A stretch of 44,022 nt of DNA, from the IMG/VR virus record IMGVR_UViG_3300046652_000006, positions 1 through 44,022 of that record; one strand, written 5' to 3'. This stretch comes from a virus. Shown piece by piece: positions 1-44,022 of this stretch. The translations under genes were made by a program, and so were the position numbers. The notes beneath the pieces are model-generated. The model ran no database searches and was not told the origin of the DNA. It was given only the letters and a program-made list of their open reading frames with translations. Position 1 is the first letter of the stretch, and each line of letters starts with the position of its first letter.

Positions 1-381
1 CCCGTCTGCCCACATGACGTACTGCGTAATAGTCTGTCCAGACTGCGCCCCGATCTGCATGAAACTGACTGGGTTTGAAGTCGAAAGTCCCGATTTCAGG
101 ACATTGGATGCGTTGGTCTGGTAAACCTTCCCGCCCGCCGCAAACAGATGAAAATAAGACCCATTGCTAAGTCTGAATTGGAATCCGCCCTGAACTCTTG
201 CGGGTAGTGGCGTTCCAAGAAACAAAGCGTTCCCTCCGCGCTTGCTTAATCCATTCTCATGAAAATTAAGGTTTTTCGATGGTAGGACCAGAGAGGTGAC
301 GGGAAGCAGTTCTTGACTCCTGTCATCTCTCAGGCCGGTTTGGAGGAATGGGCTGCGAAGAATTTGGCCGCTGTATCCCAT
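1..381 (-). CDS. Tail hub-like protein, variant copy, truncated by window edge
   Basis: This is the N-terminal ~126 residues of a second, diverged copy of the 518-residue protein at 41147-42703. It begins MGYSGQILRSPFLQ, and most differences from the full copy are silent or conservative. The ATG at 381-379 shares its A with the TGA of the upstream gene (TGATG), the same arrangement as in the full copy. The gene runs off the left edge of the window. Because the window end rejoins the sequence at 991, this fragment is best read as part of a side arm from a related strain and not as a second working gene in the same genome. Confidence 0.85.
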   Translation of the reverse strand, partial: MGYSGQILRSPFLQTGLRDDRSQELLPVTSLVLPSKNLNFHENGLSKRGGNALFLGTPLPARVQGGFQFRLSNGSYFHLFAAGGKVYQTNASNVLKSGLSTSNPVSFMQIGAQSGQTITQYVMWADG

Positions 382-671
382 CAGGAATCCTTTACCTGGC
401 CGGCTTTCTGAAATCTATCTTCATCGGCATCAGAGACTTTCTTCCATGTCGATGAAGGCGTTCCTCTATTCTGGAACCCAGCGTTGCCCGTAGTCGTCCG
501 TCTCCGCCAGAAGAAGAAGTAATCCGTCACAGGCGTAATCCCAGGGTAAAGGTTAAGAATATGGGACCGGGATGCCACACCAATCGTTCCTGATGGGATA
601 GGCATCCCGGTCCCTCGGGCACCTTTCCCGAAATCAATGGCCGATCGACGACGTTCGGGGGTGTCTATCAC
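381..671 (-). CDS. Small tail-associated protein, variant without endonuclease insertion
   Basis: A 96-residue basic protein of unrecognised family, rich in Arg and Gly, with conserved blocks FGKGARGTGMPIPSGTIG and YPGITPVTDYFFFWRRRT. It is the diverged twin of the 97-residue protein at 42703-42996. The start is GTG at 671, overlapping the stop of the 313-residue gene as GTGA, which implies coupled translation; the right-hand copy starts with ATG because an endonuclease gene separates the pair there. Its place between the adaptor-side gene and the hub suggests a structural or assembly role (inference from position only). Confidence 0.8.
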   Translation of the reverse strand: MIDTPERRRSAIDFGKGARGTGMPIPSGTIGVASRSHILNLYPGITPVTDYFFFWRRRTTTGNAGFQNRGTPSSTWKKVSDADEDRFQKAGQVKDS

Positions 672-1609
672 GTTAGTTGACCTTTTGTGTAAACCGAGCC
701 GTCGTCGCTGAGAGCCCCTGTCGCAATCACCGTCCCCGCATTGTTCTTGATCTTCTCCTGGCTCGAAGTCGCCGTATGCTCATTGCGAAGGCTCATGTAA
801 GAAAGCATGAGTGCCTGTTGGATTGTAGGAGTGGCACTCGGAACTCCCGAAAGTTCTGACATCGTATCGGTGCTAAGAGCCGAACGAATTTGCGTCAGAA
901 CCGAAGCTAAAGCTGTCGCACCTAGAGCATTGACCGTTCCAATCGTCACTCCGGTCTGGCTGGCTCCAAGATTGACAGTAGAAACCGTTTGATCAAAATT
1001 GCTTATCTTCCCTGTTAGAGGCAATGCCGCATAAATGGCCTTTAGGTCAACTGCCGCGCTATCAGCCGTTACATGACCCGTCATAGTCTCATTCCATACC
1101 GCTGCGGCAATCGTGGCGGCATCGGGACCGCCGCCGCCAGCATCGGTTATCGCTTCAAGCGAGTCCGTTGTTTGGCTAAAGGTCTGCCCTGCGTTCTTGT
1201 TCATAATCAGGTCAAAAAGGCTTCCGATAGTGGGGGGAGTACCGCCTGCGGTATTCTTGGCGAGCTTATCGAGGAGGTAGGTTACCAGGACTTTCCCTAT
1301 CCCCTGTTCTTCAATTGTGCCATCGAAATATATTTGGCTGTTTCCGATAGGGGGATCTCCGACTACCGGAGTCCCAGTTGGGTTCTGATATATGATGAGC
1401 GTGTATTTACCAGCAAGAAGGTAGGACGGGAACACACCCTTGTAGTAACCCGTAGCACCCTCTTCAGCGACTGTATTCACATAAGTTGCCCAGTTGCTGC
1501 CATTGTAGACTTCCGTGGATACCCCATTGGCAATCTTCCCCGTTGAATCGTGAATGACGATGTAGAGGGCCTGTCCAGACTGACTGACGATTTCTGTAAT
1601 AGCAGCCAT
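668..1609 (-). CDS. Virion/tail-associated protein with N-terminal Ig-like domain
   Basis: 313 residues. The N-terminal ~100 residues have the alternating polar/aromatic strand pattern of a small beta-sandwich (blocks ALYIVIHDSTGKI, YYKGVFPSYLLAGKYTLIIY, IYFDG) often seen in phage tail-region proteins. The rest is Ala/Thr/Ser-rich with short helices and repeated 'ALxTDT/TIGTVNALGATAL' texture. It lies two bases after the adaptor stop and is GTGA-coupled to the next gene. A second copy of its C-terminal ~140 residues is at 43597-44022, nearly identical in protein but clearly diverged in DNA outside the last 103 bases. A structural role is inferred from position; no catalytic motif is visible. 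Confidence 0.75.
   Translation of the reverse strand: MAAITEIVSQSGQALYIVIHDSTGKIANGVSTEVYNGSNWATYVNTVAEEGATGYYKGVFPSYLLAGKYTLIIYQNPTGTPVVGDPPIGNSQIYFDGTIEEQGIGKVLVTYLLDKLAKNTAGGTPPTIGSLFDLIMNKNAGQTFSQTTDSLEAITDAGGGGPDAATIAAAVWNETMTGHVTADSAAVDLKAIYAALPLTGKISNFDQTVSTVNLGASQTGVTIGTVNALGATALASVLTQIRSALSTDTMSELSGVPSATPTIQQALMLSYMSLRNEHTATSSQEKIKNNAGTVIATGALSDDGSVYTKGQLT
991..1093. repeat. Left copy of 103-base exact terminal match
   Basis: Bases 991-1093 are identical to the last 103 bases of the window (43920-44022). The base before it differs (t at 990, g at 43919), and divergence of the two arms continues upstream of that point. This is the signature of a circular or terminally redundant molecule whose assembly closed on itself, leaving 1-990 as a variant side arm. 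Confidence 0.9.
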
Positions 1610-16246: not shown

Positions 16247-16620
16247 ACGAAAAAGAAGCGACGCCCCACAGCCCGACGCCGACGCCGTGGACCGCCGAAG
16301 GAATGGCTGTTTATGCAGGTGACACAAAAATAGCCCAAGGATTAGACAAGGGCGCAAGAGAATTGTGGTGCAGTCACATCGTCAGAGATGAGCTTGAGCA
16401 GTTTCTCCCCGTCGAAAAAGAAGCGATAGCCAACGCCGCCTACATCGTCCGCGCCGTCAACGCCTACGCGCCGATGGTGGAAGCGTTGAAAGAAGCCCAG
16501 AAAATTATTGGCACAGCCCGTCAGTATTTCCCGAAGTCAATCAAAAATGCCGACACATTCAGCCTTGAAAACACATGCGCCGGAATCGGTAAAGCTATTG
16601 TACTCGCGGAGGGTGACTAA
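16240..16620 (+). CDS. HTPTPW-type phage protein, paralogue 1
   Basis: 126 residues. The N-terminus is HSPTPTPWTAEGMAVYAGD and the middle is NAAYIVRAVNAYAPMVEAL. This combination, a TPTPW start, a short beta part and an 'A.YIV.AVN....MVEAL' helix, recurs in many phages without known function. A related gene follows at 16948-17280, and the two share 65 identical bases over the helix. Low-complexity Ala/Thr codons and GC-rich base use set this segment apart from its neighbours. Confidence 0.6.
   Translation: MLNEKEATPHSPTPTPWTAEGMAVYAGDTKIAQGLDKGARELWCSHIVRDELEQFLPVEKEAIANAAYIVRAVNAYAPMVEALKEAQKIIGTARQYFPKSIKNADTFSLENTCAGIGKAIVLAEGD
16428..16492 (+). repeat. 65-base exact direct repeat, copy 1
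   Basis: Bases 16428-16492 are identical to 17109-17173, in the same reading frame of two neighbouring paralogous genes, encoding the block from NAAYIV through MVEALK. Complete identity including third codon positions points to recent copying or gene conversion. Confidence 0.9.
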
Positions 16621-16947: not shown

Positions 16948-17280
16948 ATGGAACACGATTGCGATTGCGATGGAACCCGAATAAAGGCAAAGAAAATAAC
17001 CCACACGCCGACGCCGTGGCATATTGCAAATAATATGGACGTTGATATTTACGGTGACACAGGTTTCAGAATTGCCGTTATGAAAGGCGGTGAAATCATG
17101 CGTGACGAAGCCAACGCCGCCTACATCGTCCGCGCCGTCAACGCCTACGCGCCGATGGTGGAAGCGTTGAAAGCCGCCGTTAAACTAATGGAGAGTAAAG
17201 AGACGGCATGGGCATTTCATGAGGATGTATTTATCCAGATGAGAGAAGCCCTCCGCGCCGCCGAAGGGAAGGGGGAGTAA
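16948..17280 (+). CDS. HTPTPW-type phage protein, paralogue 2
   Basis: 110 residues: an acidic-Cys start (MEHDCDCDGTR), THTPTPWHIANNMDVDIYGD, then the same NAAYIVRAVNAYAP helix as the gene at 16240 and a C-terminal helical tail. GGGAGGT precedes the ATG. The family is common in phages with no assigned role. The two paralogues differ in the middle and at the C-terminus, so only the shared helix and the TPTPW start look conserved. Confidence 0.6.
   Translation: MEHDCDCDGTRIKAKKITHTPTPWHIANNMDVDIYGDTGFRIAVMKGGEIMRDEANAAYIVRAVNAYAPMVEALKAAVKLMESKETAWAFHEDVFIQMREALRAAEGKGE
17109..17173 (+). repeat. 65-base exact direct repeat, copy 2
   Basis: Identical to 16428-16492, 681 bases downstream, in the second HTPTPW-type gene. 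Confidence 0.9.
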
Positions 17281-18479: not shown

Positions 18480-18713
18480 ATGGTGGAATTCATTATGGAT
18501 AAAACTATGGTACTGGTTACATTAGCGCAGTATATCAACGGTCAGGGATCGGTCGCTAAGGCGTCACGGTCGCTCGGGGTAAGTCGTCAAACTATGGACC
18601 GTTGGCGCCTTGGTAAGTTTAAACCGTCGCAGGCGATGATTCGGCTGGCGAAACAAGAGGGGATTGATTTGCTTGCGTCTCTTGCGCCGGATACCACAGC
18701 TTCAACATCGTAA
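18480..18713 (+). CDS. Cro/XRE-like helix-turn-helix regulator
   Basis: 77 residues from the ATG at 18480; starts at 18495 (GGTGGA upstream) or TTG 18423 are also possible. The body VTLAQYINGQGSVAKASRSL, GVSRQTMDRWRLGKFKPSQA and IRLAKQEGIDLLASLAPD is a small HTH with a Trp in the recognition-helix area. Its last 95 bases overlap the end of the VapE-type gene on the other strand, so the two are convergent. Alone after the operon terminator, it may have its own promoter and control early genes. Confidence 0.65.
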   Translation: MVEFIMDKTMVLVTLAQYINGQGSVAKASRSLGVSRQTMDRWRLGKFKPSQAMIRLAKQEGIDLLASLAPDTTASTS

Positions 18714-20229
18714 AACCGCGACGGACGTTTTTCCGTTCCCATCCGAAATGACGCAGGATCGCACCGATACGGCGCTGATCCTGTTTGTTGATATCGGATT
18801 TACTAAATCCCATGCTTGAGGCTAAATCCATAAGGCTAATTTCATTTTTTCCGACCATGTATTCCTGGATGACGTTCTCCCATTCGTCATATTCACGACG
18901 GTCCTCCTGCTGCTCCCATGTGGCTTCTGATGGCATGAGATACCAAGGATCACCGGCGATATATTGCGTCACAGCTTCCGCGAATAGTTGATCACGGTCA
19001 GACCGGATACGATCAATATCAATAGATCCGCACGTCATAGGCCAAAACCGCCTAGCCCCTGTATTGTCTCGAAGATAATGTTGCTCGTTGGTGGTTCCAA
19101 CAAAAACGGATTGTCTGGGGTGGTCCTGAGAAGATCTGCCATACGGCGCCCGATAACGATCAGTGCGGCAGGTGATAACCTTCTTGATCCTGGTCGTGTC
19201 GGCGCGAGAGAACGAATCAAGATCGGCTATTTCTATAATGAGTTTCCCTGCTAGAGCGACAAAGAAATCCTTTGACGTTAGTTCCTCGGATGCTTCCATA
19301 TACCACTTGCCGCCAATCGCTTCCAGGGCTTTGGACTTGTAGATACCCTGCTTGCCTTCCAAAATAACCATATTGTCTAGCTGACATCCAGGCTTATAGA
19401 CACGCGCCACCATGCCCACCCAGAAATTAAATCCGACGGCATGATGATATAGAGTCTGCGGAGTTCCAAAATAATCAGGAAAGAATTTAGCAATACGTTC
19501 CTTGCCATCCCATCGTAAGTGAGACATCCAATCCCTTGGCTCATTACGCCGGCATTGATGGCCCCGGCATTGAATGGCTTCCGATACGGTCGCTGTCCGT
19601 AGTCTCGGCAATCCGTACTCGTGCTGTAGAAGAACGGAGAGATTGATATCGTCGATATCTCCCCATTCGGATTTGTTGGCCTTAAAATAGCGCCCATAAA
19701 ACTCGTCATACGAAACCATGTCCCTAAATTTCGGCCAATGCGAGAGTAAACGGACTATGTTATCGACGTTATAAATAACGCCTGATTTATTCTGGGCAAG
19801 ACCGCATGTGTCCCATATCTGCTGAATGTCGGGAGTAATAGGATCGGGGGCTTCGTTTGTTTCAAGGGAAATAGCGGTAGGGAATTCACCGCGTCCAAAG
19901 ATCATCATGGACGCCTTCGCCCACTCCGCTATCTGGGGCCAAGTCAATTTATCCCTCTGGACGGCTGCGGTGATATTCCACCCGTGGGGCTTGCCGTTGG
20001 GTACGATCATCTTGATTTCGGATGCGATATCGTTGATCTTGGCGCCGAACTCACGGAAAGCGGTACGGGATTCCTCGGTAGCATCAGGCCACAGGATCAC
20101 CTTCAGACCCTGGAACGTCGCTGGATCGAACCCGTTAGCGGGCCGGCAAGCTATGGAGTATCCGGTAGCGATAGACGCAGACTCTACGGCTCCTGATTCG
20201 ACAACTATGAGGGGTTTATTTTCAGACAT
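18619..20229 (-). CDS. VapE-type helicase with degenerate TOPRIM-like N-terminus
   Basis: 536 residues from the ATG at 20229 (GAGG six bases upstream). C-terminal half: VILEGKQGIYKSKALEAIGG (P-loop), LAGKLIIEIADLDSFSRAD (Walker B), IKKVITCRTDRYRAPYGRSS and FVGTTNEQHYLRDNTGARRF, the ordered motifs of the virulence-associated E superfamily III-type helicase. N-terminal ~90 residues: LIVVESGAVESASIATGY and VILWPDATEESRTAFREFG read like a TOPRIM primase domain, but the usual D-x-D-x-x-G is D49-A-T51-E-E-S, so catalytic acids are missing. It probably opens DNA for replication by host polymerase. Confidence 0.85.
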   Translation of the reverse strand: MSENKPLIVVESGAVESASIATGYSIACRPANGFDPATFQGLKVILWPDATEESRTAFREFGAKINDIASEIKMIVPNGKPHGWNITAAVQRDKLTWPQIAEWAKASMMIFGRGEFPTAISLETNEAPDPITPDIQQIWDTCGLAQNKSGVIYNVDNIVRLLSHWPKFRDMVSYDEFYGRYFKANKSEWGDIDDINLSVLLQHEYGLPRLRTATVSEAIQCRGHQCRRNEPRDWMSHLRWDGKERIAKFFPDYFGTPQTLYHHAVGFNFWVGMVARVYKPGCQLDNMVILEGKQGIYKSKALEAIGGKWYMEASEELTSKDFFVALAGKLIIEIADLDSFSRADTTRIKKVITCRTDRYRAPYGRSSQDHPRQSVFVGTTNEQHYLRDNTGARRFWPMTCGSIDIDRIRSDRDQLFAEAVTQYIAGDPWYLMPSEATWEQQEDRREYDEWENVIQEYMVGKNEISLMDLASSMGFSKSDINKQDQRRIGAILRHFGWERKNVRRGFTMLKLWYPAQETQANQSPLVSPAESSPATV

Positions 20230-25966: not shown

Positions 25967-26310
25967 ACAAAGACCAATTCGCCTATTTGAATGAAAACAT
26001 CGTCTCCCTGGAATCCGAGCGCGACCGTTGGTACAAACAGGCGCATGAATCAGAGCAACGGTATTTGAACGCATCGGCTGAGTGCGACCGATTGAAGGCG
26101 GAGTTGGAAAAGCTGAGTTGCCCACATTGTGGATCAGATGTGGACGGAAAGAATTGGAAGGCCCTTGCCGAGAAGATGCGGGAGGCGTCACGCATAGGCA
26201 TGGAGTGGGTTTTACTTGGCAATCATGATGAGGCCCCAGGATGGATAGAAGCACGAGATTCGTTCGAGAGAGCCCTCGCCTTGTTCGACGCGAAAGGGGA
26301 TATGAAATGA
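25963..26310 (+). CDS. Coiled-coil protein with CPHCG knuckle
   Basis: 115 residues. MNKDQFAYLNENIVSLESER and RYLNASAECDRLKAELEKLS are coiled coil, then CPHCGSDVDGKNW (zinc knuckle half), then a helical C-terminal half with WVLLGNHDEAPGW and FERALALFDAKGD. It resembles the coiled-coil proteins at 15515 and 26878. Function unknown. Confidence 0.5.
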   Translation: MNKDQFAYLNENIVSLESERDRWYKQAHESEQRYLNASAECDRLKAELEKLSCPHCGSDVDGKNWKALAEKMREASRIGMEWVLLGNHDEAPGWIEARDSFERALALFDAKGDMK

Positions 26311-26756
26311 CGACTATTGAGCAACGGTTTTTTGCGAAAGTAATTAAAACTCCAAAGTGTTGGTCTTGGATTGGGGCAAAAGGGAGTAACGGCTACGGTC
26401 AGATGCAGATGGGTCCAAGAAAACAGCAAGCGCATCGCATTGCGTATGAATTGTTTGTAGGACCTATCCCCGAAGGTTTAACGATTGACCATATTTGCCG
26501 ATTCAAGGACTGTGTAAATCCTTCCCATTTGCGAACCATGACGATGCTCGAAAACGTAATGGATGGATGCGTCAATGCCAAGAAAGATCATTGTCCGCAA
26601 GGCCACAAATACGACGAAACCAACACGATACGCTACCGGACGTTCCGCTATTGCCGGGAGTGTAAACGCGCGAAGGATAAGGCGCATCATCTGAAATATC
26701 GTGATCGGATTCTTGCCCGAAAAAGAGAAGCCTGGCGCAAGGCGGCGGGGAAATGA
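26307..26756 (+). CDS. HNH homing-type endonuclease
   Basis: 149 residues from the ATG at 26307 (ATGA overlap). KCWSWIGAKGSNGYGQMQMG, HRIAYELFVGPIPEGLTIDH and ICRFKDCVNPSHLRTMTML are the conserved H-N-H block (D61-H62, N71-P-S-H74), and a C-terminal Cys-His ribbon CPQGHKYDETNT...YCREC follows. It nicks or cuts DNA at a specific site and probably spreads by homing. Codon-level overlaps with both neighbours show it is now part of the operon. Confidence 0.9.
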   Translation: MTTIEQRFFAKVIKTPKCWSWIGAKGSNGYGQMQMGPRKQQAHRIAYELFVGPIPEGLTIDHICRFKDCVNPSHLRTMTMLENVMDGCVNAKKDHCPQGHKYDETNTIRYRTFRYCRECKRAKDKAHHLKYRDRILARKREAWRKAAGK

Positions 26757-31296: not shown

Positions 31297-34041
31297 TCAT
31301 GGGACGTATATCGGCATTTTTAGCAATGAACCACCGCCCGTCGTGCAGATCGTTTGCTCCGCTCCTGAACTTCCATACATCACCAAATTAGCCGATGTTC
31401 CTCCACTACAACGATAGAGAGCGGTTCCACTCCCTATGGGTGTGCTTACAAATACAGCACTCGTAACCGACATAGAGGCATTGATGACCATAAATTGGTC
31501 AGTTGGAGCACTTGCCATTTTCCCGTACATAAGAGACTGGGCTTGTTCAGTCGCTTCATCACCTCTGTCAACATTGTTGACCATGAAAACATTATCAGAT
31601 GTCTGATAAAATCCAGACTTGTTTCCTAAAAATATTCCTCCTGAACCCGTCGCGGATTGCCCAGCCTGATTTCCTAGGAAAACGCTGTTGTTTCCAAATG
31701 CCGCGTATCCTGCTAAGTGTCCGACGGAAACATTGTAGCTCCCAGTTCCGTAAGCGCCCGCTTGATCTCCTACATAAACATCGTAAGATGCGTTGGGGAT
31801 GTAAGCGCCAGTGTAGTATCCGATGAAGGTATCATATGTGCAACCACCGTTTGCACAGCCATTCCCAGAGTAATCACCATATGCGGAAATGTAAGCCCCA
31901 GGACTAGGGTTATTTATAAACGAAAGATGTGATCCAGCTAAGGTATTTCCGGTCCCTACGTTATCTGTGTAAAAATTCGTCGAAACAGCAGGCCCCGTAG
32001 TCGTAGCGACATCAGCTATCCATGAAAACGGAGAACTTCCGCCGCCACCAGATCCGCAAGCGCTCCCTGTAACAGATAGGCGTCCTCCAGTTGTCGTCTG
32101 GACACATTGACCGCTCGTGAGACCTGAAACAGTTAAGGCTGTGAACGTCGAAGGCTTAGTGTTTGTCCAGGACTGTTGCGCTGTCCAGGTGCTCGTTGTT
32201 GCTATGATTTGATCAAGTGTTTGAGCCGCCGAATATTGTTGAGAATAATCACCGAATGTTACAGGAATACCCGTAGGCATGACAATACCGCTATCGCCAG
32301 ACATAGCAAGAGTTCCAGTTCCTGCTGTATTTACTAATGTTATTGCTCCACCGCCGTAACAATTCCCAGATTGAAATATATCTCCAAGGAACATCGTCCC
32401 TTGGCTGATACTCCCACAATCTCCGAAAAGACCGAGAGTTGAATTAGGGAAAACAATATTCGGAGCATTGAGGGCCGTAATCGTAGCACTTGAAATAATT
32501 GAATTTGTTGCAGAAAATATATTCGTCGTAGAGCTGTAGTTGAGGTTGGCGGTATCGACGGCCATGGTCGAAGAAGGGGAACCAAAGGGAATGGAAGTTG
32601 GTTCGAGAACGACTGAACCACCAGCCGCCGATATGGTGATCTGCGCCGTTGTTCCGCCAACGGAAGCGGTCGTGATCGTGACGCCAGACCCCGCAATGAA
32701 ACTGGCTGTGATTGTGGGACTTGTGACGCGGACATTGTTTCCCATGATTTCGAGAGATAAAGAACCGCCGCCCCCTGTCGGAGTTGACCACTGGGGACGA
32801 ACCCCGGCCCCTTTAGAAGTAAATACCTGCCCATCAGTCCCAGCGCTTCCACTAGCAGAAAGGTAAACGTCGCCCACTCCTAAATACAGAGCGTGGTTTG
32901 TAAGTCCGCTAGAAGCCGTTCCATAAAGACCAATGTTTTGACCACCAGTTGCGTAGGCTGACCCATAAAGACCGTAGACTGTTCCAGTGCTCTGAATAGC
33001 GCCAGAGACGGTTCCTTGTACGCCTGTCAGTCCTTGGACTTTACCACCAGAAGCTACAGCATTTCCCGACAAGGCCGTTGCGATTGACGTATTCCCGGTA
33101 TTCGTTGTAGTGAATGATGCCCCCACCGGGTTGGCTAACCCGGTTGTATTGCTCTGCACGATCGCGCTATTGAAGTTCCATTGGCCGCGAGCGGTCGGGG
33201 AGTCTCCGAATAGATCATATTTTTGAACTTGACCAAAACTGTCTGTTTTTAGAAAAGGGGAATTGTAGTAAGCTGCTGGAAGAGTAAATCCGTTCATGTA
33301 ATATACTCTTGACCCTGAAATATCCATAGCGGCAAGATTATTACTTCCTAACCATAAATCACCGCTAGAGGTTCCTGGATCAGCCATCAGAAGAACATCG
33401 CCTGGCAGAGCGGCAGTGGCGTAATACGTGTCACCATCACCTCCGACATTAACGATATTAAATCTTGAAATTGCTGGAGCTGAGAAATCTGGTGGACCGT
33501 AACTAAAAAACGATGTCAAGAAGGGAGAACTATAATCATTCGATGTGAACATGGGCCCTTGCGAATAATTAGAGGCGTTTACGTTGCTGTTGGTCCTCAG
33601 AGGAGGAGCATATCCATAAAAGGAATCCCCATTGTATACGGTGGTAGTTCCCGTAATAACCAAACTTTTCGTAGTCGATGAATAATTAAGATTATCGGTA
33701 TCGACGGCCATGGTCGATGAGGGGGATCCGAATCCAATGGCGGTGGGAGAAAGAGTGACGGCCCCAGCGCTTGAAGACAAGATCCCAAGATCAACCCAGG
33801 TATAGGTACTCCCTTGAAGTTGGTAGGTATGGCTATTGTCCTTTTGAAAGACAATCATGCCGTTGTAGACCTGGGTCTCCGTCATAGCCAGGCGAGCCGT
33901 CGAATCATCCGCTACGAGTTTGGCATCTAAGGGCCTTCCGCTGTTCTCTTGGAAGTTTGAGGATAACGGGATATCTCCGGTATCAGCCAAGAGTGATGCC
34001 GGGACCAAGAGAGACGCGAGAATGACGAGTTTTTTAATCAT
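31297..34041 (-). CDS. Secreted fibre/adhesin-like protein, 914 residues
   Basis: N-terminal signal peptide (MIKKLVILASLLVPASLLA, then D). The middle contains two copies of a GFGSPSSTMAVDTDNLNYSS module (about residues 105 and 483) and a module SLEIMGNNVRVTSPT to TTAQITISAAGG (~432) shared with the next gene upstream. The C-terminal ~220 residues have repeated G-N/V-x-LG-x-x-AG blocks (YDVYVGDQAGAYGTGSYNVS, VFLGNQAGQSATGSGGIFLG, NKSGFYQT), like the head repeats of YadA-type trimeric adhesins. Probably a trimeric appendage that contacts the host or another surface. TAATG-coupled to the gene upstream. Confidence 0.72.
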   Translation of the reverse strand: MIKKLVILASLLVPASLLADTGDIPLSSNFQENSGRPLDAKLVADDSTARLAMTETQVYNGMIVFQKDNSHTYQLQGSTYTWVDLGILSSSAGAVTLSPTAIGFGSPSSTMAVDTDNLNYSSTTKSLVITGTTTVYNGDSFYGYAPPLRTNSNVNASNYSQGPMFTSNDYSSPFLTSFFSYGPPDFSAPAISRFNIVNVGGDGDTYYATAALPGDVLLMADPGTSSGDLWLGSNNLAAMDISGSRVYYMNGFTLPAAYYNSPFLKTDSFGQVQKYDLFGDSPTARGQWNFNSAIVQSNTTGLANPVGASFTTTNTGNTSIATALSGNAVASGGKVQGLTGVQGTVSGAIQSTGTVYGLYGSAYATGGQNIGLYGTASSGLTNHALYLGVGDVYLSASGSAGTDGQVFTSKGAGVRPQWSTPTGGGGSLSLEIMGNNVRVTSPTITASFIAGSGVTITTASVGGTTAQITISAAGGSVVLEPTSIPFGSPSSTMAVDTANLNYSSTTNIFSATNSIISSATITALNAPNIVFPNSTLGLFGDCGSISQGTMFLGDIFQSGNCYGGGAITLVNTAGTGTLAMSGDSGIVMPTGIPVTFGDYSQQYSAAQTLDQIIATTSTWTAQQSWTNTKPSTFTALTVSGLTSGQCVQTTTGGRLSVTGSACGSGGGGSSPFSWIADVATTTGPAVSTNFYTDNVGTGNTLAGSHLSFINNPSPGAYISAYGDYSGNGCANGGCTYDTFIGYYTGAYIPNASYDVYVGDQAGAYGTGSYNVSVGHLAGYAAFGNNSVFLGNQAGQSATGSGGIFLGNKSGFYQTSDNVFMVNNVDRGDEATEQAQSLMYGKMASAPTDQFMVINASMSVTSAVFVSTPIGSGTALYRCSGGTSANLVMYGSSGAEQTICTTGGGSLLKMPIYVP
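32619..32764 (-). repeat. Shared fibre module, copy in 914-residue gene
   Basis: Encodes SLEIMGNNVRVTSPTITASF and GSGVTITTASVGGTTAQITI. The same module is in the upstream gene at about 34752-34895, with clear DNA similarity. It reads like a joint or shaft piece moved between fibre genes. Confidence 0.6.
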
Positions 34042-35135
34042 TAGAATTTATACGTGTTCGTGAAACTTGTTTGGGATGTCGGAGTATTGAACTCATAGAC
34101 GTAATAATTCTGCGTCGTCGAATCAAGCATAGTCATGGTTCCACTCCTTTTCGTGTAGCCGGAAATCGTCTCAAAATTGCTCGGATCAAGAATGGAAGTA
34201 AGATTCCCGGCGCTCTGAGGGTAAGCAAAATAATAGACCTGACTTGATGGGCTTGTGGTCGTTGCTGTGTTCGCGGGAGTTTGGACGAGCTTTGTTAACC
34301 CTTGGACAGAAGCAAAAGAAAGATTTTGCGCTCCGACTCCATAATAGAAGGGATAGACAAACGTGAAGGTAACGGAATTGGATGTGGTGTTGCTTGTCCC
34401 ATCGCCGTCCACTGCGGTATAGGCTGATGTAGTAGAGCGCGTATCCGTATCGGTATAGACTTCCGTTCCACCCGTTGATACAGGCGTTGAGCTACTCTTA
34501 ATGACCGTCCCGTTTAACTTCCATTGAACAATCGTAATCGGGCTCGATTTTTCGACCGTATAGGCCGAAAGGACGACGTTTGTCATGGTCGTCCCAAGTT
34601 CTTTGACGATCGCACCTGGGCTGGTTCCGAGAGTCACAGCAGGAGCTGTGTATTGAAAATCAAAAATCTGGTCTAATGCAGCGCTTGATGTTGCGACATT
34701 AACGGCTTCGCTAAACCGTCCAGAATAACCAGTCCGAACATAGGCGCTTGAGCCTCCTGTCGCCGATATGGTCATCTGAGCCGTCGTCCCGCCTACGGCT
34801 GAGGTCGTGATCGTTACGCCAGACCCCGCCAGAAAGCTTACGGTTGCGGTGGGGCTCGTTATACGAACTGAGTTACCCATCACTTCCAGAGAAGGAGTTC
34901 CACCACCGCCACCTCCGCATGGTGTTGCTGCCGATGTTAATGATCCCCCTGGACCAGCTTGAACACACATTCCATTCGTAAGATCCCTAACAGAGCCGCT
35001 CGAAACCAATAGCGCTGGACGAGACGCTATCGTGCTTGCGTTTACGAGATAATTTCCGGCTGGCGGCGTAACAGCGGCACCATAAACTGATCCCGCCAGT
35101 CCAAGGAATGCGATGGCTTTAAGGAATCTATTCAC
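34041..35135 (-). CDS. Secreted fibre-like protein, 364 residues
   Basis: GTG start at 35135, chosen because VNRFLKAIAFLGLAGSVYGA is a signal peptide; an upstream ATG at 35180 would add 15 basic residues. The module SLEVMGNSVRITSPTATVSF and TTAQMTISATGGS is shared with the 914-residue protein. The C-terminal ~220 residues are beta-rich, with ITIVQWKLNGTVIKSSSTPV and a late YYVYEFNTPTSQTSFTNTYK of the kind seen at fibre tips. Stop and next ATG overlap (TAATG). Confidence 0.65.
   Translation of the reverse strand: MNRFLKAIAFLGLAGSVYGAAVTPPAGNYLVNASTIASRPALLVSSGSVRDLTNGMCVQAGPGGSLTSAATPCGGGGGGTPSLEVMGNSVRITSPTATVSFLAGSGVTITTSAVGGTTAQMTISATGGSSAYVRTGYSGRFSEAVNVATSSAALDQIFDFQYTAPAVTLGTSPGAIVKELGTTMTNVVLSAYTVEKSSPITIVQWKLNGTVIKSSSTPVSTGGTEVYTDTDTRSTTSAYTAVDGDGTSNTTSNSVTFTFVYPFYYGVGAQNLSFASVQGLTKLVQTPANTATTTSPSSQVYYFAYPQSAGNLTSILDPSNFETISGYTKRSGTMTMLDSTTQNYYVYEFNTPTSQTSFTNTYKF
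34752..34895 (-). repeat. Shared fibre module, copy in 364-residue gene
   Basis: Matches 32619-32764 in protein and DNA. It sits between the signal-peptide region and the beta-rich tip of the shorter gene, which supports a modular shaft. Confidence 0.6.
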
Positions 35136-35365: not shown

Positions 35366-37747
35366 TCATTCATCACCCTGTCCTGTTTGCGTTGTATCTG
35401 GCATCGTTGGTCGTTTATTGCCACCGCCAAGAAAAGCCCCGCCAAATAGTCTAGGAAGGTTCTTCACAACTGCCGACTGTACTGAATAGGGATTAGAGAA
35501 CGCGCCCTTCATCATGGCATCGGTAAATGCCTCGTTGTAGAAACCCTTTGAAAAAGCATACCCCGCTGCCCCTGTTACTGATCCGACTATGGGATTATGA
35601 AAGATTTGAAATAGCATTCTAGCGGCTATATTGCTTGGGGCTGTCTTAGAGACGTTCGTAAGAGAGTTAATCTGCGCTCCAATATGATAAAGCGTGTCGG
35701 AATAGTTATTTAGGTGTTCCTGTGTTGGCTTATCAAATAGCCAATTTGTCAGAGGTTCGCCATATTGGTGCCTCATCTTGTCCACCGCTTTCCCTGATAT
35801 CTGGTCGTGGATATCTGGTTTCAGGATATCGGCTAGAACAGCTTCCCCAACAAGCCTCTTTCCATCCTCGCCTTCCGTGCTTAATAATGACGCCAATTTT
35901 GTCACATTGGTCAACTTCTGATTGTCTGTCAATGAGTTACCAACAACTGTTCTTATGACGCCAGCGCCAGTCTCATTTTTCATAATGGACTGGAAAAGTT
36001 TGTTTTGAGATAAGTCAGGGCCGATGTCACGAAGTTGGCTAGGCAATTTGTACCAGTCTGCCGCCTGTTTCTTAGACAGGATGCTGTCGATAGAAAGGTT
36101 CCCCCATTTCTGCGTCGTCGCTTCAAGTGACTCAGGGCTTATATCGTCGGCTCCAAGGGATTCTTTCAACCATCTATCCTGGTAGTTTGCCCTCGTTTTT
36201 GGATCGAAGATCTTCATCGTTTCTTGAATGGGAGTAACATTCCCAGGTTTCATAATGTACGGATATATTCGCTCGGGGTTCTGCTGATTTATAATTGTCT
36301 GAAACGTATCACGATCAATGGCGCCGTGCATATAGCGGCTAAATGTCCTTGCTGTCGTCAAGGCTTCTGATGCCATATCTCCCTGTGGTGCAATACCCGC
36401 TTGCATCGCATTATCAAGAGAGTCAGCATACTGACTCCACCGCTTTGAAAGGGTTGTATTTAGTCCAGTATCTCCCCTAAGTTGGCGATTCATCTGAAGG
36501 GCTGTGCTTCTCATCTCCTGAAGGTCATCGAACGACATTGTGCGTCCTTCAAGACCTTGAACAAGAGCGGGAGATTTCATTACGTTATTCGCGTCGATTC
36601 CCATCCCAAGAAGTTCGGCATCAGCTAATTTCTTTGTTGTTTCTGCCATTACATTTTGTTTTATTGGAACCCCGCCAGCCTGGAAACCTCCTACCGTTGG
36701 TGTTTGACCAACACCATAGGACTTGTATATTGTGTCTATTCTCTGTTGTGCGAGTTTTGCAAAATCTTCTTTCTCTGCCGCACCAGAGGCTTTCCGCAAA
36801 TCGCCAATAAGTTTTTGCGTCCCAGGCAATTGAGAGTATGGCGCCATCTGATCCAGAAGCTCTTGCGAAGGTTCTCCAATATGTTCATGAATAGGTATTT
36901 GAGCTTGCTTATCGAATGGTAGGCTTTCCCATAATTGCTTTTGTTGTGCTTGAAGCGAATCCTGCCATCTCTTTGCCGCCGCCTGGTCGCCCATGGTCAA
37001 TTCGTCATAAGTAAATGGTGACCCATGCGCTTCAAGGAACTTATCAAGAACTCCTTTCTGCGCCACTTCTACGGAATCTTTGCTTTTAGACGTTGCAAGC
37101 GTGACTAAATCCTTTATCTCAAGTCCTTTGGCTTTAACTGCTTCGATAGGGCTCCCGACCCTTACCATATCTTTGTATTCATCAATCATCTTGGAGAGAT
37201 ATCTATTATCGAAATCTTCAGCTACCGTTTTAGTAATAGGGAGTGCCCTGAATGCCGACCCTATAAATTTGACGACTGGATTTCTAGAAATCTGATCCAA
37301 TGACAGGGGAATCCCTCGTCCCTTTGCGTAGTCGTAGATCTGCTTTGCTTCTGAGGACAGGCCTTCATAGAGAGGAGGCAAGATTGCCTTGGCGGCCTTA
37401 GTCATGCCTTGCCCTGCAATTTCAGCAATCCCAGACTCTCCGATAGCTTGAGGAATATCCAATGCTCCAGGCTGATCTCCTATCCCTCGAACAGCATCAA
37501 CTCCCTTGGCTCCAAGAAGTCCTGCCGCGCCACCTAAAATCGATCCACCTGCTGCCCCAATAGGCCCGAGAGGTAACCCCGCAGCGCCACCGAGCATTGC
37601 CCCTGCCACAAAAGATGTAGGCGTATAGATCTTGCTCTGCTCTCTCTTTAAGGAGTCGTCGGGAGGGAGATTGGAGTCATCGACAGCCGTATCCGTTGTT
37701 GGCGGTTTCCAGGCCGGGGTGTCAGTTGCGGGCGGTTTCCATGCCAT
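35366..37747 (-). CDS. Large ejection (pilot) protein candidate
   Basis: 793 residues from the ATG at 37747 (TAATG with the upstream gene). The N-terminus has a Pro/Thr repeat (AWKPPATDTPAWKPPTTDTA), then a glycine-zipper stretch AGAMLGGAAGLPLGPIGAAG continuing GGSILGGAAGLLGAKG at about residues 47-80 that could insert in membranes. The rest is long helices. Size, Gly zipper and place after the hub/collar genes match ejection proteins that travel with DNA into the host, such as P22 gp16 or T7 gp16-type, by pattern and context only. Confidence 0.6.
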   Translation of the reverse strand: MAWKPPATDTPAWKPPTTDTAVDDSNLPPDDSLKREQSKIYTPTSFVAGAMLGGAAGLPLGPIGAAGGSILGGAAGLLGAKGVDAVRGIGDQPGALDIPQAIGESGIAEIAGQGMTKAAKAILPPLYEGLSSEAKQIYDYAKGRGIPLSLDQISRNPVVKFIGSAFRALPITKTVAEDFDNRYLSKMIDEYKDMVRVGSPIEAVKAKGLEIKDLVTLATSKSKDSVEVAQKGVLDKFLEAHGSPFTYDELTMGDQAAAKRWQDSLQAQQKQLWESLPFDKQAQIPIHEHIGEPSQELLDQMAPYSQLPGTQKLIGDLRKASGAAEKEDFAKLAQQRIDTIYKSYGVGQTPTVGGFQAGGVPIKQNVMAETTKKLADAELLGMGIDANNVMKSPALVQGLEGRTMSFDDLQEMRSTALQMNRQLRGDTGLNTTLSKRWSQYADSLDNAMQAGIAPQGDMASEALTTARTFSRYMHGAIDRDTFQTIINQQNPERIYPYIMKPGNVTPIQETMKIFDPKTRANYQDRWLKESLGADDISPESLEATTQKWGNLSIDSILSKKQAADWYKLPSQLRDIGPDLSQNKLFQSIMKNETGAGVIRTVVGNSLTDNQKLTNVTKLASLLSTEGEDGKRLVGEAVLADILKPDIHDQISGKAVDKMRHQYGEPLTNWLFDKPTQEHLNNYSDTLYHIGAQINSLTNVSKTAPSNIAARMLFQIFHNPIVGSVTGAAGYAFSKGFYNEAFTDAMMKGAFSNPYSVQSAVVKNLPRLFGGAFLGGGNKRPTMPDTTQTGQGDE

Positions 37748-38913
37748 TAGTTTTTCACCCATTCTTTTCCATTCACGTCGAGGTAATGAGATCCTTTCGG
37801 CAAAGAGTTGTGATCGTTCGCGTTGGTTATAGTTTTTACCTGTTGCCCTTGGAAGAAATCCTGGACCATCGTTGGATCGCCGCCAAGGTTTTGAATATGC
37901 CTTTTCGTCATATCCGCGTAATCGCTTACTGTCTTAGAGTGTAATTTGTCCTGACTCTTTGCGATTTGAAGCATACGCATGGCGTCCTTGGGATCTATCT
38001 TTGACGTAGTGAGAAGGGTTTCCCCGCCAGGGATTGACGATAAAATTGGGCTACCAGACACTTGAAGATCCTTATAAGTCTGAGCATTAATGACGCCATT
38101 GAAATTTGGGTCAATCGCATGGACATAGCTATTTAGGAAAGACCAGGGATCAACATCGGTCCCTGCCTTTTGAGACTGATTGACGATATTTTGCATTTGC
38201 TGAAAACTCTTATGAGCATTGACGAATGGAGTCACCGAGGCTTTGTATTTATCGTTTTCGTCTAAGGCTTTGCGTTGTGACTCCTGTCCCTGAGTGAACT
38301 CCGTCCGTTTCCTCGTCTGTTCCTGGTCGTACATATTCTGCACAGGCGTTAAAACTCCCTGCAACCGTTCCTGTTGAACCTTTGAAGCCTTGGCTTTTAG
38401 TTTGCTGAGGAAATACATCGTGTCTTCAAGCGTAGCGTCTCCTGCCTGAAGTGCATCGACGGCTTTCCCTGCCTGTTTCATTACTCCACCCATGTCAGGA
38501 GTAAATTGCCAATCGTCAGGGATTGACCCAGGGGCAACCATATCGACGCCTTTTTTAAATGTATTAAAAAGTTCAGGTCCCGCGTCGTCACCCCATCTGT
38601 CATATCCTTCTGCGGCGGCCTTCATAAGTCCAAGACCATTATCTTGTTGGATCTTTTTAGCTTCTGCCTGTTGCTTTGCGATTGCCGCCTGTGTCTGTTG
38701 AACCGCCAATGCCCTGATTTCAGGTGACATCTGGTATTGGGTGATTTGGTTAGCAAGCCCTTGTGCCCTTGCTTGTTGAAGATTTAATCCCATCTGCGCC
38801 CCACCCTGAAGACCACTTGCCAACCCTTGTGCCAATCCCGGTTGTTGCGTTATCTGTGCAGGTCCAGGCAATTGAAAATTAGGAATCTGTGGAATGTATC
38901 CCATGTCAGGCAT
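37747..38913 (-). CDS. Ejection/internal virion protein candidate
   Basis: 388 residues, mostly helical and Gln/Ala-rich (MGLNLQQARAQGLANQITQY, LAVQQTQAAIAKQQAEAKKI), with a C-terminal part SKTVSDYADMTKRHIQNLGG and QVKTITNANDHNSLPKGSHY. TAATG-coupled on both sides with the flanking ejection-protein candidates. The three-gene set resembles the P22 gp7/gp20/gp16 arrangement in order and composition; individual homology is not shown. Confidence 0.6.
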   Translation of the reverse strand: MPDMGYIPQIPNFQLPGPAQITQQPGLAQGLASGLQGGAQMGLNLQQARAQGLANQITQYQMSPEIRALAVQQTQAAIAKQQAEAKKIQQDNGLGLMKAAAEGYDRWGDDAGPELFNTFKKGVDMVAPGSIPDDWQFTPDMGGVMKQAGKAVDALQAGDATLEDTMYFLSKLKAKASKVQQERLQGVLTPVQNMYDQEQTRKRTEFTQGQESQRKALDENDKYKASVTPFVNAHKSFQQMQNIVNQSQKAGTDVDPWSFLNSYVHAIDPNFNGVINAQTYKDLQVSGSPILSSIPGGETLLTTSKIDPKDAMRMLQIAKSQDKLHSKTVSDYADMTKRHIQNLGGDPTMVQDFFQGQQVKTITNANDHNSLPKGSHYLDVNGKEWVKN

Positions 38914-40314: not shown

Positions 40315-41150
40315 AGGATTCGTATTAATTTGTACATGCCGAGGTATGGCGGCAAGTTGTTATGCGCCCCGCCTCCACCAGTATTAGTGTTCGTCGTTGC
40401 CACCGTAACGCCGGTCGTATCGACAGAGGTCAATGATGCGCCGTCCAAAGCCGTTGGGCTTCCAAATACGTCCACGCTCGTTGATCCAGTATTATCAACG
40501 TGGATATTTTGGTTCTTGCTTCTTTTATGCTGATGTCCAGAGTCCGTTACGACGCTTGTCGCCGTATGCGTATGCGATGGCATCTCAGGAGTTGTCAGAA
40601 CATGGGTGGCTTCTCCGCCAGTCGCAGCAAGAGCGTAAGTGGTTCCAGCCCCGATAGACATCCGATCCCTGTAGTCTGGGAGATTAAATGTGGTTGTCGT
40701 ATCTCCAGCCCCAAACGTGGTCCCAATGAGTGCAAATAGAGTGGCATAAGTGACTCGGCTTATAGCCGTCCCGTCAGCCAAATGCCACTTAGCGTTCGGG
40801 GCAGTAGCAACTGGATAATCGATGACACCCCCAAGTGGAACAACCACGTTTCCAACAACCGTCAAATCCGTCGCTGCTGGCTTGTACCAGTAGTCCGTTC
40901 CAAGGATCTGCGCTAACTGATAGCGGAGTCTCTCAAGTTCCCCGGCTATGGATGTAGCATTGCTGAGGACACTTCCTGGGAATGGAGCGGTCTGAATCTG
41001 CGCATCGGCATCAGTATCAGAATGACCGCCTGCCCCTGAAGCATCCAATAACGCTCCGATATTCGCCAGCTCCGCATTTCTCTCAGCCGACGTAATCAGT
41101 TGATCTACGACGACTGTGTTAAGTGGTATCGTTCCGGTTGTTCCGCTCAT
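40311..41150 (-). CDS. Collar-domain tail fibre protein
   Basis: 279 residues. The N-terminal ~110 residues are a helical attachment part (AERNAELANIGALLDASGAG, SIAGELERLRYQLAQILGTD). The collar domain follows: VVVPLGGVIDYPVATAPNAK, WHLADGTAISRVTYATLFAL, IGTTFGAGDTTTTFNLPDYR and EMPSHTHT, ending HNNLPPYLGMYKLIRIL. The DGTAIS...YATLFALIGTTFG...NLPDYR signature is the phage tail collar fold. Probably a receptor-contacting fibre tip or cap. Overlaps the hub gene by 4 bases. Confidence 0.88.
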   Translation of the reverse strand: MSGTTGTIPLNTVVVDQLITSAERNAELANIGALLDASGAGGHSDTDADAQIQTAPFPGSVLSNATSIAGELERLRYQLAQILGTDYWYKPAATDLTVVGNVVVPLGGVIDYPVATAPNAKWHLADGTAISRVTYATLFALIGTTFGAGDTTTTFNLPDYRDRMSIGAGTTYALAATGGEATHVLTTPEMPSHTHTATSVVTDSGHQHKRSKNQNIHVDNTGSTSVDVFGSPTALDGASLTSVDTTGVTVATTNTNTGGGGAHNNLPPYLGMYKLIRIL

Positions 41151-42703
41151 ATGCGAACTCCCCTTGGGCTATATAGGTATATTAGCTCTGACAGAAAAAA
41201 TGGTTGCCCTGTCGCATTGTTAATAAACTCTCCCTGGAAATCTCGCCCATAATACCCAACATCAATGGTCGCCGGCACGAGGCTATCTCCGGCGAATGTA
41301 TCGACATCGTAATGGGCACTATCATACTTGGCTCCACTTCCAGTAAGAGTGAAAGTCGCGTCAGTCCGTCTAACTCCATCAATATAGGATTGCATCGTAA
41401 AATCTACTCCGCTGGATGCGCTTCCCCTGAATACGATCCCCTTGAAATGCTTCCAAGCGCGAGGGGCTCCGAGGTCTTGTCGGATAGTTCTGATCCTGGT
41501 CCTATAAGCGTTCCCGTTATCATCGTCGTCAGATTGCTCTAGCTTCCAAATCCTTCCAGAGTAATCCCCCGTCCACAACTGCCAATCGCCAGGGCCATTT
41601 CTCACTTCCCATACCGCCGAAGCATCGTACCCGCTATCAAAATCCTCGTTATCGTGGATGATCCACGCTTGAGAAGGGTCTTTGTCTACAAAATAGGTAA
41701 GGGCGATGTTATTGTTTGATCCACCCTCCTGCATAAACCATTTTATCGCTCTTAGTTTGCGATCATAGGCGCAACAAAAGTTCTCGATATTGGAGAGCGT
41801 GATATTGTCTCGAATGAATTTGTCGATATACGCAGGACGAGCAATGGGGGAAGCCGAATATGAACCCGTAGCAACGATCCCTTGCAGATTGTAGATCGTC
41901 GAATCCTCGGCCATGATAAAAAGGTTGTTATTTGCCTTGCAGACGAGCCGCCAATGAGCAGCGCCGCCATCCCATAGAGATTCATGGTATCCCCAATTTT
42001 GGCTATTGGAGTCGGTGTCGTCTATGAGATAAGTTTTCGTCTTATCCCAAACAAATAGCTGACCGCCAAGATCAATGCCACCGACAAGCCCGCCCTTAGA
42101 ATAAACTGGAATCTGAATGACATCGGCATCTCCGAAGTTCCAAGGCTCTGCAATCTTAGATGCCCATACACTGTCTTTCGTAATCGCCCATGCCCTGATA
42201 TTGGCGTTCCTAGCGTGATTGATTATTTGGAATGGCATTCCACTCGTTGATCCCCAGGATGTTGCTGTAGTCACCGCCGTTGAAGTCGGCGCGGACCCAT
42301 CCCAATACTGAGGTGCGATTTGTCCATCAGCCCACATGACATATTGAGTGATCGTCTGTCCTGACTGGGCGCCGATCTGCATGAATGAAATTGGATTAGA
42401 CGTTGATTGGCCCGACTTCAAGACATTTGATGCGTTCGTATGATAGACCTTCCCATTTGAAGCAAATAGGTGGAAGTAAGATCCGTTCGACAACCTAAAT
42501 TGGAACCCAGACTGGACACGCGCCGGCAATGGCGTCCCTAGGAATAATGCGTTGCCTCCCCGCTTCGATAACCCATTCTCATGAAAATTGAGGTTCTTCG
42601 ATGGCAGGACCAGAGAGGTGACTGGAAGCAGTTCTTGACTCCGGTCATCTCTCAGGCCGGTCTGGAGGAATGGACTTCGGAGAACTTGACCGCTATAGGC
42701 CAT
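41147..42703 (-). CDS. Tail hub-like protein (P22 gp10-like), full copy
   Basis: 518 residues, full version of the fragment at 1-381. MAYSGQVLRSPFLQTGLRDD then SLVLPSKNLNFHENGLSKRG is the typical start of phage stabilisation/hub proteins. WD-like beta blades follow: FMQIGAQSGQTITQYVMWAD, IAEPWNFGDADVIQIPVYSK, YLIDDTDSNSQNWGYHESLW, QAWIIHDNEDFDSGYDASAV. Proteins with this layout close the tail under the adaptor. Overlaps the neighbouring genes by 1-4 bases on both sides. Confidence 0.68.
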   Translation of the reverse strand: MAYSGQVLRSPFLQTGLRDDRSQELLPVTSLVLPSKNLNFHENGLSKRGGNALFLGTPLPARVQSGFQFRLSNGSYFHLFASNGKVYHTNASNVLKSGQSTSNPISFMQIGAQSGQTITQYVMWADGQIAPQYWDGSAPTSTAVTTATSWGSTSGMPFQIINHARNANIRAWAITKDSVWASKIAEPWNFGDADVIQIPVYSKGGLVGGIDLGGQLFVWDKTKTYLIDDTDSNSQNWGYHESLWDGGAAHWRLVCKANNNLFIMAEDSTIYNLQGIVATGSYSASPIARPAYIDKFIRDNITLSNIENFCCAYDRKLRAIKWFMQEGGSNNNIALTYFVDKDPSQAWIIHDNEDFDSGYDASAVWEVRNGPGDWQLWTGDYSGRIWKLEQSDDDDNGNAYRTRIRTIRQDLGAPRAWKHFKGIVFRGSASSGVDFTMQSYIDGVRRTDATFTLTGSGAKYDSAHYDVDTFAGDSLVPATIDVGYYGRDFQGEFINNATGQPFFLSELIYLYSPRGVRI

Positions 42704-42996
42704 CAGGAATCCTTCGCATCATTGGCTTTCACGAAAATATCTTCATCGGCGTCCTGTGCTTTCTTCCATGTTGATGACGGAGTAGAACGCCCCTGAAATC
42801 CGGTACTCCCTGTCGTCGTTCTCCTTCTCCAGAAGAAGAAGTAATCCGTCACAGGGGTAATGCCGGGATAGAGGTTCATAATGTGGGACCGCGAGGCCAC
42901 GCCAATCGTTCCAGATGGGATAGGCATCCCAGTCCCTCGGGGTCCTTTCCCGAAATCAATGGCCGATCGGCGGCGCTCAGCGGTATCTATTGCCAT
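42703..42996 (-). CDS. Small tail-associated protein, copy beside HNH gene
   Basis: 97 residues; twin of the protein at 381-671 with high protein identity (FGKGPRGTGMPIPSGTIG, PGITPVTDYFFFWRRRT). Here it starts with ATG at 42996, because the endonuclease gene now separates it from the 313-residue gene with which the left copy is coupled. TGATG with the hub gene. Structural role by position only. Confidence 0.8.
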   Translation of the reverse strand: MAIDTAERRRSAIDFGKGPRGTGMPIPSGTIGVASRSHIMNLYPGITPVTDYFFFWRRRTTTGSTGFQGRSTPSSTWKKAQDADEDIFVKANDAKDS

Positions 42997-43025
42997 ATTG
43001 GTGTATGTTGTGCCATAATATATCC

Positions 43026-43619
43026 ATGATTACTAAATGGCCTTGCCTCAAGAAAATGCCTTACCCATGCACTTGCGGTTGCGGTGGATTTGCTCAAAGA
43101 AATAAATACGAAGTTAAGCGTTTCCCTGTATTTATTCGAGGGCACCAATTCAGAGGAAAATTTAATTTTAACTGGAATGGAGGCGTTCGTATAAGTCAGG
43201 GATATCGACTCATTCTTTCTCCTGGACATCCCAATGCAGACCAGTCTGGATATGTTAGGGAGCATTGCCTTGTGATGAGCGCCTATCTCAAACGTCCTCT
43301 TGATAAAACTGAAATTGTGCATCACATCAATGGTGTCAAAACCGACAATCGCATAGAAAATCTTGTGATTACCAATCGCGCTGAACATGCGTCTCATCAT
43401 CATAAAGGAGTCTTGAAGCCAAATAGTCTTAAAAATATTAGAGGTCATACTTCTAAAGAAATGAAAAAAATCTGGAGAACGTCTCGAAAACACCATCGGC
43501 AAAAGCCAATCGTATGTAGGAATTGTAGTGGATCGTTCTTCTCCAAAAAACGAAGACTTAAGCAAATTTATTGTTCCCATCATTGCTATATCCTTTTCAA
43601 GAAAACTGACCTTTTGTAA
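43026..43619 (+). CDS. Free-standing HNH endonuclease inserted between late genes
   Basis: 197 residues if started at ATG 43026; ATG 43056 (MPYPCTCGCGGFAQRNK) or TTG 42990 are alternatives, none with a good ribosome site. It carries an N-terminal CTCGCGG knuckle, an HNH core REHCLVMSAYLKRPLDKTEI then VHHINGVKTDNRIENLVI, and a C-terminal ribbon VCRNCSGSFF...YCSHHCY. It is the only rightward gene in the late block and is absent from the left-hand variant. Its last 23 bases overlap the end of the 313-residue gene copy. Looks like a recent homing insertion. Confidence 0.9.
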   Translation: MITKWPCLKKMPYPCTCGCGGFAQRNKYEVKRFPVFIRGHQFRGKFNFNWNGGVRISQGYRLILSPGHPNADQSGYVREHCLVMSAYLKRPLDKTEIVHHINGVKTDNRIENLVITNRAEHASHHHKGVLKPNSLKNIRGHTSKEMKKIWRTSRKHHRQKPIVCRNCSGSFFSKKRRLKQIYCSHHCYILFKKTDLL

Positions 43620-44022
43620 AAACATTTCCGTCATCCGAAAGAGCAGATGTAGCAATCACCGTTCCCGCGTTGTTTTTAATCTTCTCCTGGCTCGATGTAG
43701 CCGTATGTTCGTTGCGAAGACTCATGTAGGAAAGCATGAGTGCCTGTTGGATTGTAGGAGTGGCACTCGGAACTCCCGTAAGCTCTGACATCGTATCGGT
43801 GCTAAGGGCCGTACGAATCTGAGTCAGAACCGAAGCTAAAGCCGTCGTGCCGAGAGCATTGACCGTTCCAATCGTTACGCCAGTCTGACTGGCCCCGAGA
43901 TTGACCGTCGATACCGTCGGATCAAAATTGCTTATCTTCCCTGTTAGAGGCAATGCCGCATAAATGGCCTTTAGGTCAACTGCCGCGCTATCAGCCGTTA
44001 CATGACCCGTCATAGTCTCATT
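43597..44022 (-). CDS. Virion/tail-associated protein, C-terminal part, variant copy
   Basis: The C-terminal ~140 residues of a protein nearly identical to residues ~173-313 of the gene at 668-1609; it runs off the right edge. Changes are mild (DPTVSTVNL against DQTVSTVNL, SALSDDGNVFTKGQFS against GALSDDGSVYTKGQLT). Beyond 43920 the DNA is identical to the left copy, so past the window edge it is expected to continue as the left sequence. Confidence 0.85.
   Translation of the reverse strand, partial: NETMTGHVTADSAAVDLKAIYAALPLTGKISNFDPTVSTVNLGASQTGVTIGTVNALGTTALASVLTQIRTALSTDTMSELTGVPSATPTIQQALMLSYMSLRNEHTATSSQEKIKNNAGTVIATSALSDDGNVFTKGQFS
43920..44022. repeat. Right copy of 103-base exact terminal match
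   Basis: Identical to 991-1093. Together they allow circular closure with a genome length of 42,929 bases (43920 minus 991). Confidence 0.9.

Follow-up and report, generated by a model that had tools for sequence, protein, structure and literature searches.

The viral record IMGVR_UViG_3300046652_000006, analyzed here over its whole 44,022 nucleotides (the window), carries two versions of the same tail genes, one at each end, and its last bases recur exactly near its start. This raises the question of whether the phage possesses a true, diverged duplication of these genes or whether the window is a circular genome to which a stretch from elsewhere was attached during assembly. The two versions are referred to below as arm 1 (left end) and arm 2 (right end), and the features involved are listed in Table 1.

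Table 1. Features of the window around the place where its ends meet.
Feature	Coordinates	Strand	Details	Basis
Arm 1, putative side arm of a lasso	1..990		5′ part of hub gene, complete 96-aa gene, C-terminal third of 313-aa gene; without HNH insertion	Self-BLAST, alignment, codon comparison
Hub/nozzle gene, arm 1	1..381	-	N-terminal 127 codons, truncated by contig start	
97-aa gene, arm 1 version	381..671	-	96 aa, GTG start	
313-aa tail gene, read through arm 1	668..1609	-		
Repeat copy 1	991..1093		Merging point of both arms	Exact suffix match
Hub/nozzle gene, complete	41147..42703	-	518 aa; P22 gp10/T7 gp12-like predicted fold	AlphaFold2 model, Foldseek
Arm 2	42324..43919		Continuous with remaining contig; homologous to arm 1, with HNH insertion	Self-BLAST, alignment
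97-aa gene, arm 2	42703..42996	-		
Insertion	42997..43596		600 bases, between 313-aa stop and 97-aa start; absent from arm 1 and nine relatives	
HNH endonuclease gene (HNH_3)	43026..43619	+	197 aa from ATG 43026; antisense to tail operon	
313-aa gene, 3′ part read through arm 2	43597..44022	-	Gives 313 aa with 991-1609	
Repeat copy 2	43920..44022		Contig terminus	Exact suffix match

Probable closure of the contig at an internal repeat

The last 103 bases of the window are identical to bases 991-1093. This is the longest suffix of the window to recur elsewhere in it, and the match begins precisely at 991/43920, the preceding base being T at 990 and G at 43919. No other exact repeat in the window is as long (the next longest measures 65 bases; after shuffling, the longest are 13-17). 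This rejoining is confined to the right end: around base 1, the sequence resembles the circle at about 78% identity and does not run back into it. The arms merge at codon 207 of the gene encoding a 313-amino acid (aa) tail protein. Joining 43919 to 991 yields a circle of 42,929 bases (991-43919), in which the 313-aa reading frame is whole again, its length unchanged, and the minus-strand structural genes form a single continuous block.

We consider it very likely that the window is the product of a lasso-shaped short-read assembly, with a loop (991-43919) from one phage and a side arm (1-990) from a second population. The loop would map a single uncultured phage of the podovirus type as a closed circle. 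Bases 1-990 would belong to another phage population of the sample, related to the first; at 991-1093, midway through the 313-aa gene, the two share no fewer than 103 identical bases, and beyond these they differ by 12-22%. The assembly walk would have led from the relative's arm into the shared segment, around one circuit and back via the other arm, to stop at the shared k-mer. Reads would presumably span the 43919|991 join.

The length of the repeat can be set beside what is known of assemblers. Contigs from de Bruijn graphs break at branch points where paths meet, with an overlap equal to k (COBRA; PMC10914622), and circular templates give end repeats equal to the assembler k, which pile up at k values (CheckV; PMC8116208). 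JGI's published MEGAHIT k-list is 23,43,63,83,103,123 (PMC8125072, PMC6081815, PMC6243002, PMC9302102). An overlap of 103 bases is what would be expected of a contig halting at the merge vertex of a k=103 graph, a coincidence that is suggestive only, 103 being present in the JGI list but not as its largest k, and the list possibly not being that of the assembler used for this record.

Like contigs with a CheckV direct terminal repeat, or those that COBRA terms self_circular, the window has a short exact end overlap of roughly k-mer length, and its size and gene set match those of relatives that close. The difference is that the overlap partner here is an internal position, 991, lying after a variant arm. 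The window thus has no direct terminal repeat of the CheckV type (at least 20 exact bases at both contig ends), and a start-to-end repeat test is blind to this closure because the variant arm precedes the overlap point.

Single-copy tail genes in related phages

Nine relatives were retrieved from IMG/VR and GTDB with the 313-aa protein, the major capsid protein and the hub protein as queries (L003, L004, L005, L006/G004, L007, L008/G006, L009/G007, L018/G008 and L027/G009). In all nine, the 313-aa, 97-aa and hub genes are present in single copy, in an unbroken order spanning the place where the window ends meet. As far as each contig reaches, the portal, capsid, glycosyltransferase, 298-aa, 313-aa, 97-aa, hub and tail collar genes are uninterrupted and occur once each, the order being major capsid ... 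298 aa - 313 aa - 97 aa - hub - tail collar - 108 - 373. The window is therefore a permuted map, since its ends fall in the middle of this continuous run. Two of the relatives close on themselves: G004 (40,921 bases) closes within the glycosyltransferase gene through an exact terminal repeat of 98 bases, giving a circle of 40,823 bases, and G007 (42,807 bases) has a 225-base terminal overlap with one mismatch, located elsewhere on the map, giving a circle of 42,582 bases. Both sizes are near the 42,929 bases proposed here.

The window thus combines an overlap at its end, a gene order that runs across the join in relatives and intact genes at the join, as a closed genome should. The original prediction had equated the last 103 bases with 991-1093, which the suffix match and the differing flanking bases confirm, and had proposed a closed molecule of 42,929 bases. 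This second claim is supported by the continuity of 9/9 relatives across the join, by the two self-closing relatives and by the restored gene, and we infer that the record represents a circular-mapping genome of about 42.9 kb, in the form of a near-complete map. The further claim of a single hub, 97-aa and 313-aa gene agrees with the one copy of each in every relative; judged from these comparisons, the duplicate tail genes would be an artefact of assembly.

The contig does place both arms on one path, and both have intact reading frames under purifying selection (dN between arms of 0.06-0.12 across the hub, 97-aa and 313-aa segments; dN/dS about 0.03-0.1). This speaks for a real diverged duplication, i.e. 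a second, partial hub-97-313 copy on one linear or circular molecule, such as a donor cassette or an unequal terminal redundancy. We rejected this explanation, which we regard as highly improbable, on the single-copy state of the genes in the nine relatives, including the two that close on themselves. In addition, the contig start cuts arm 1 inside the hub gene, the exact 103-base repeat stops precisely where the contig does, in the manner of a graph overlap, and the synonymous divergence between the arms would demand an old duplication that was subsequently lost in every relative.

The phage itself is an uncultured, short-tailed podovirus type of an undescribed lineage. Its major capsid protein belongs to phrog_1328 (E=3e-84) and its portal to phrog_1216 (E=9e-28), and further genes encode a tail collar/fibre protein, an M15-type endolysin, a VapE-like primase/helicase, a ResIII helicase, a RecE-like protein and RecT. 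An AlphaFold2 model of the hub protein, of low confidence (pLDDT 54, TM-scores about 0.3), matches the tail nozzle/hub proteins of Pan3, Pa223, Pam1, P22 and T7 (Foldseek, E down to 1e-11). On this model the protein is a predicted podovirus tail nozzle resembling P22 gp10 and T7 gp12, for which the name 'hub gene' is apt. A phage capsid and portal, together with a nozzle of the gp10/gp12 type according to the low-confidence model, place the phage among the podoviruses. It resembles the structural modules of P22, T7 and Pam1 in the predicted fold of its hub and in having a major capsid and portal that fall into PHROGs families, and differs from them in its hub, for which the 50,697 phage records of INPHARED gave no sequence match, and in its capsid, whose identity to that of any INPHARED phage does not exceed about 41%. 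No DNA relatives were found in INPHARED, and the window gave no Rfam hits and no tRNAs. This is a new but conventional phage genome, the lasso being an ordinary effect of assembly.

The nearest genome record, with 91% capsid protein identity, is a lake-sediment contig assigned to a Phycisphaerales MAG; the close relative L018 (CAIVHJ010000330.1) is binned in a Phycisphaerales MAG whose source is Alinen lake sediment. The binning of phage contigs is unreliable, and this one is either a weak hint of the host or a case of mis-binning.

Several other features of these genomes were noted. In the window, an 81-base direct repeat (16428-16508 and 17109-17189; 91% identical, with a 65-base exact core) sits in two neighbouring small early-region genes (126 aa and 110 aa). 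Short-period tandem-repeat tracts occur in G008 (C330, 36439-36761), G009 (34848-35114), G006 (33531-33769) and G004 (18591-18757), those of G008 and G009 directly downstream of recT; the window is without them. The major capsid gene of L003 (2792-3691) contains an in-frame stop, leaving an ORF of 242 aa vs. about 300, either through a sequencing error or a real break.

Divergence between the two arms

Outside the repeat, identity between the arms is 88% for 719-990 vs. 43648-43919, where the longest identical run is 49 bases, and 78% for 2-668 vs. 42324-42990. The C-terminus of the 313-aa protein is identical at 98/107 aa (synonymous/nonsynonymous changes 37/14; dS 0.68), the 97-aa protein at 81/96 aa (42/24; dS 1.14) and the hub N-terminus at 119/127 aa (65/20; dS 2.26, a value at or near saturation). 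These codon counts bear out the view that the arms encode the same tail genes with scattered, mostly silent changes; their gene content is not identical, however, arm 2 having an extra HNH gene. The attribution of 1-990 to a 'related strain' made the relationship too close. Arm 1 appears to be an anciently diverged allele and not that of a close strain, since 12-22% of its bases differ and dS ranges from 0.7 to over 2. Similarity to G008 or L003 was considered as a guide to which allele is the original, and discarded: the arms are nearest each other and about equally far from G008.

A point against a lasso is that 103 identical bases beside 12-22% divergence would be odd for two independent phages; at 88% identity and with independent sites, the chance of such a run is 0.882^103 = 2.5e-6. 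Identity over at least 103 bases in this setting implies mosaicism among phages that occur together, a chimeric join being the less likely alternative. In a purely chimeric join, arm 1 would derive from an unrelated backbone and be misjoined at a conserved stretch. Metagenome assemblers do produce such joins, and arm 1 has no support from an independent IMG/VR contig: exact scans of IMG/VR with the start of arm 1 and with the shared 103-base segment gave no further contig, with the proviso that such scans may omit records closely similar to the window. A graph join nevertheless requires an exact shared k-mer, and the 103-base identity far exceeds the other identical runs between the arms, making a chimeric origin unlikely in our view. 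Most likely, the arms represent two different alleles of one tail segment, reflecting mosaicism between co-occurring phages that share a backbone, and would be located on different molecules.

The switch at codon 207 adjoins codon 212. In L003, L007 and G004, which lack the middle of the 313-aa protein (about residues 109-211), codon 212 marks the onset of the conserved C-terminal portion. This middle part thus looks like a replaceable module, with the lasso join at its edge, and it is plausible that a domain border near codon 207 serves as the exchange point.

An HNH endonuclease gene in one arm

The only real novelty of the record is the HNH nuclease gene that is present in one arm and missing in the other. 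The boundary between the 313-aa and 97-aa genes is empty in arm 1 and in 9/9 relatives and filled in arm 2; the gene pair overlaps at GTGA in arm 1 and either abuts or overlaps in each of the nine relatives. The insertion has a GC content of 39.3%, vs. 49.0% for the window, placing it in the lowest 0.7% of 600-base segments. Its HNH_3 domain scores above the curated cut-off of Pfam (PF13392, E=2.7e-9) and the protein matches PHROGs HNH families with E-values down to 5.5e-17. An HNH domain and a defined insertion site that is empty in relatives make it a candidate free-standing HNH homing endonuclease. The gene resembles the T4 mob genes and phage HNH_3 genes of this class in its domain, its low GC content, its position as a gene of its own between two conserved structural genes and its present/absent polymorphism. 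It differs from them in its orientation, antisense to the operon, and in its position where two small tail genes meet.

A promoter-like TTGCCA-18-(TG)CATAAT (window 42990-43026) ends 7 bases 5′ of the HNH ATG and would give a leaderless HNH transcript, the scan counts for such elements not being above chance. A match of the HNH protein to a solved structure of PRDM9 was disregarded as zinc-finger similarity. Another HNH_3 endonuclease gene lies in the early region of the window (26241-26756; phrog_826, E=3e-47), and genes similar to it sit elsewhere in G004 and G007.

Free-standing phage endonucleases sit between conserved genes and co-convert their flanks (PMC2988022; PMC10448857), and homing with co-conversion is known for T4 (PMC2988022). 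By analogy, homing might be a special case of the lasso, in which an HNH+ donor converted an HNH-less recipient, the nuclease gene being copied together with donor flanks; we view this as a tentative possibility. Arm 2 would then comprise the HNH gene and, from the donor, diverged flanking sequence of about 1 kb or more, with arm 1 as the unconverted recipient and arm 2 as the converted recombinant, on the same backbone and in the same sample. Such a scheme fits the empty site in arm 1 and the nine relatives vs. the low-GC insertion in arm 2, the divergence of the sequences flanking the insertion on either side, which gives way abruptly to identity at 991, and the RecE/RecT-type recombination genes encoded by the phage. 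It also fits a comparable insertion in the sister phage G007, where an antisense HNH insertion lies between the portal and 575-aa genes (37554-38129, L014; GC 40% vs. 51%); in the window, the portal/575-aa boundary measures only about 112 bases. Ordinary tail-gene mosaicism, however, would give the same picture. At the end of arm 1, identity is still about 78%, leaving the second tract edge out of view, so plain mosaicism is equally possible; moreover, searches of IMG/VR revealed no relatives of the HNH protein, and no donor genome was found. That homing took place in a natural population, with an unconverted arm 1 and a converted arm 2 coexisting on an otherwise identical backbone and one tract edge placed to the base at 991, seems doubtful.

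In the lasso that we favor, with or without homing, one allele of the tail segment would carry a free-standing HNH gene at the 313/97 boundary and the other would represent the empty site. This reading clears the record of a spurious tail-gene duplication, provides an undescribed podovirus lineage with a nearly complete map of 42.9 kb and offers an example of a type of closed genome that is missed by the start-to-end repeat test. The pair of filled and empty HNH sites would, in turn, make a natural homing event testable.
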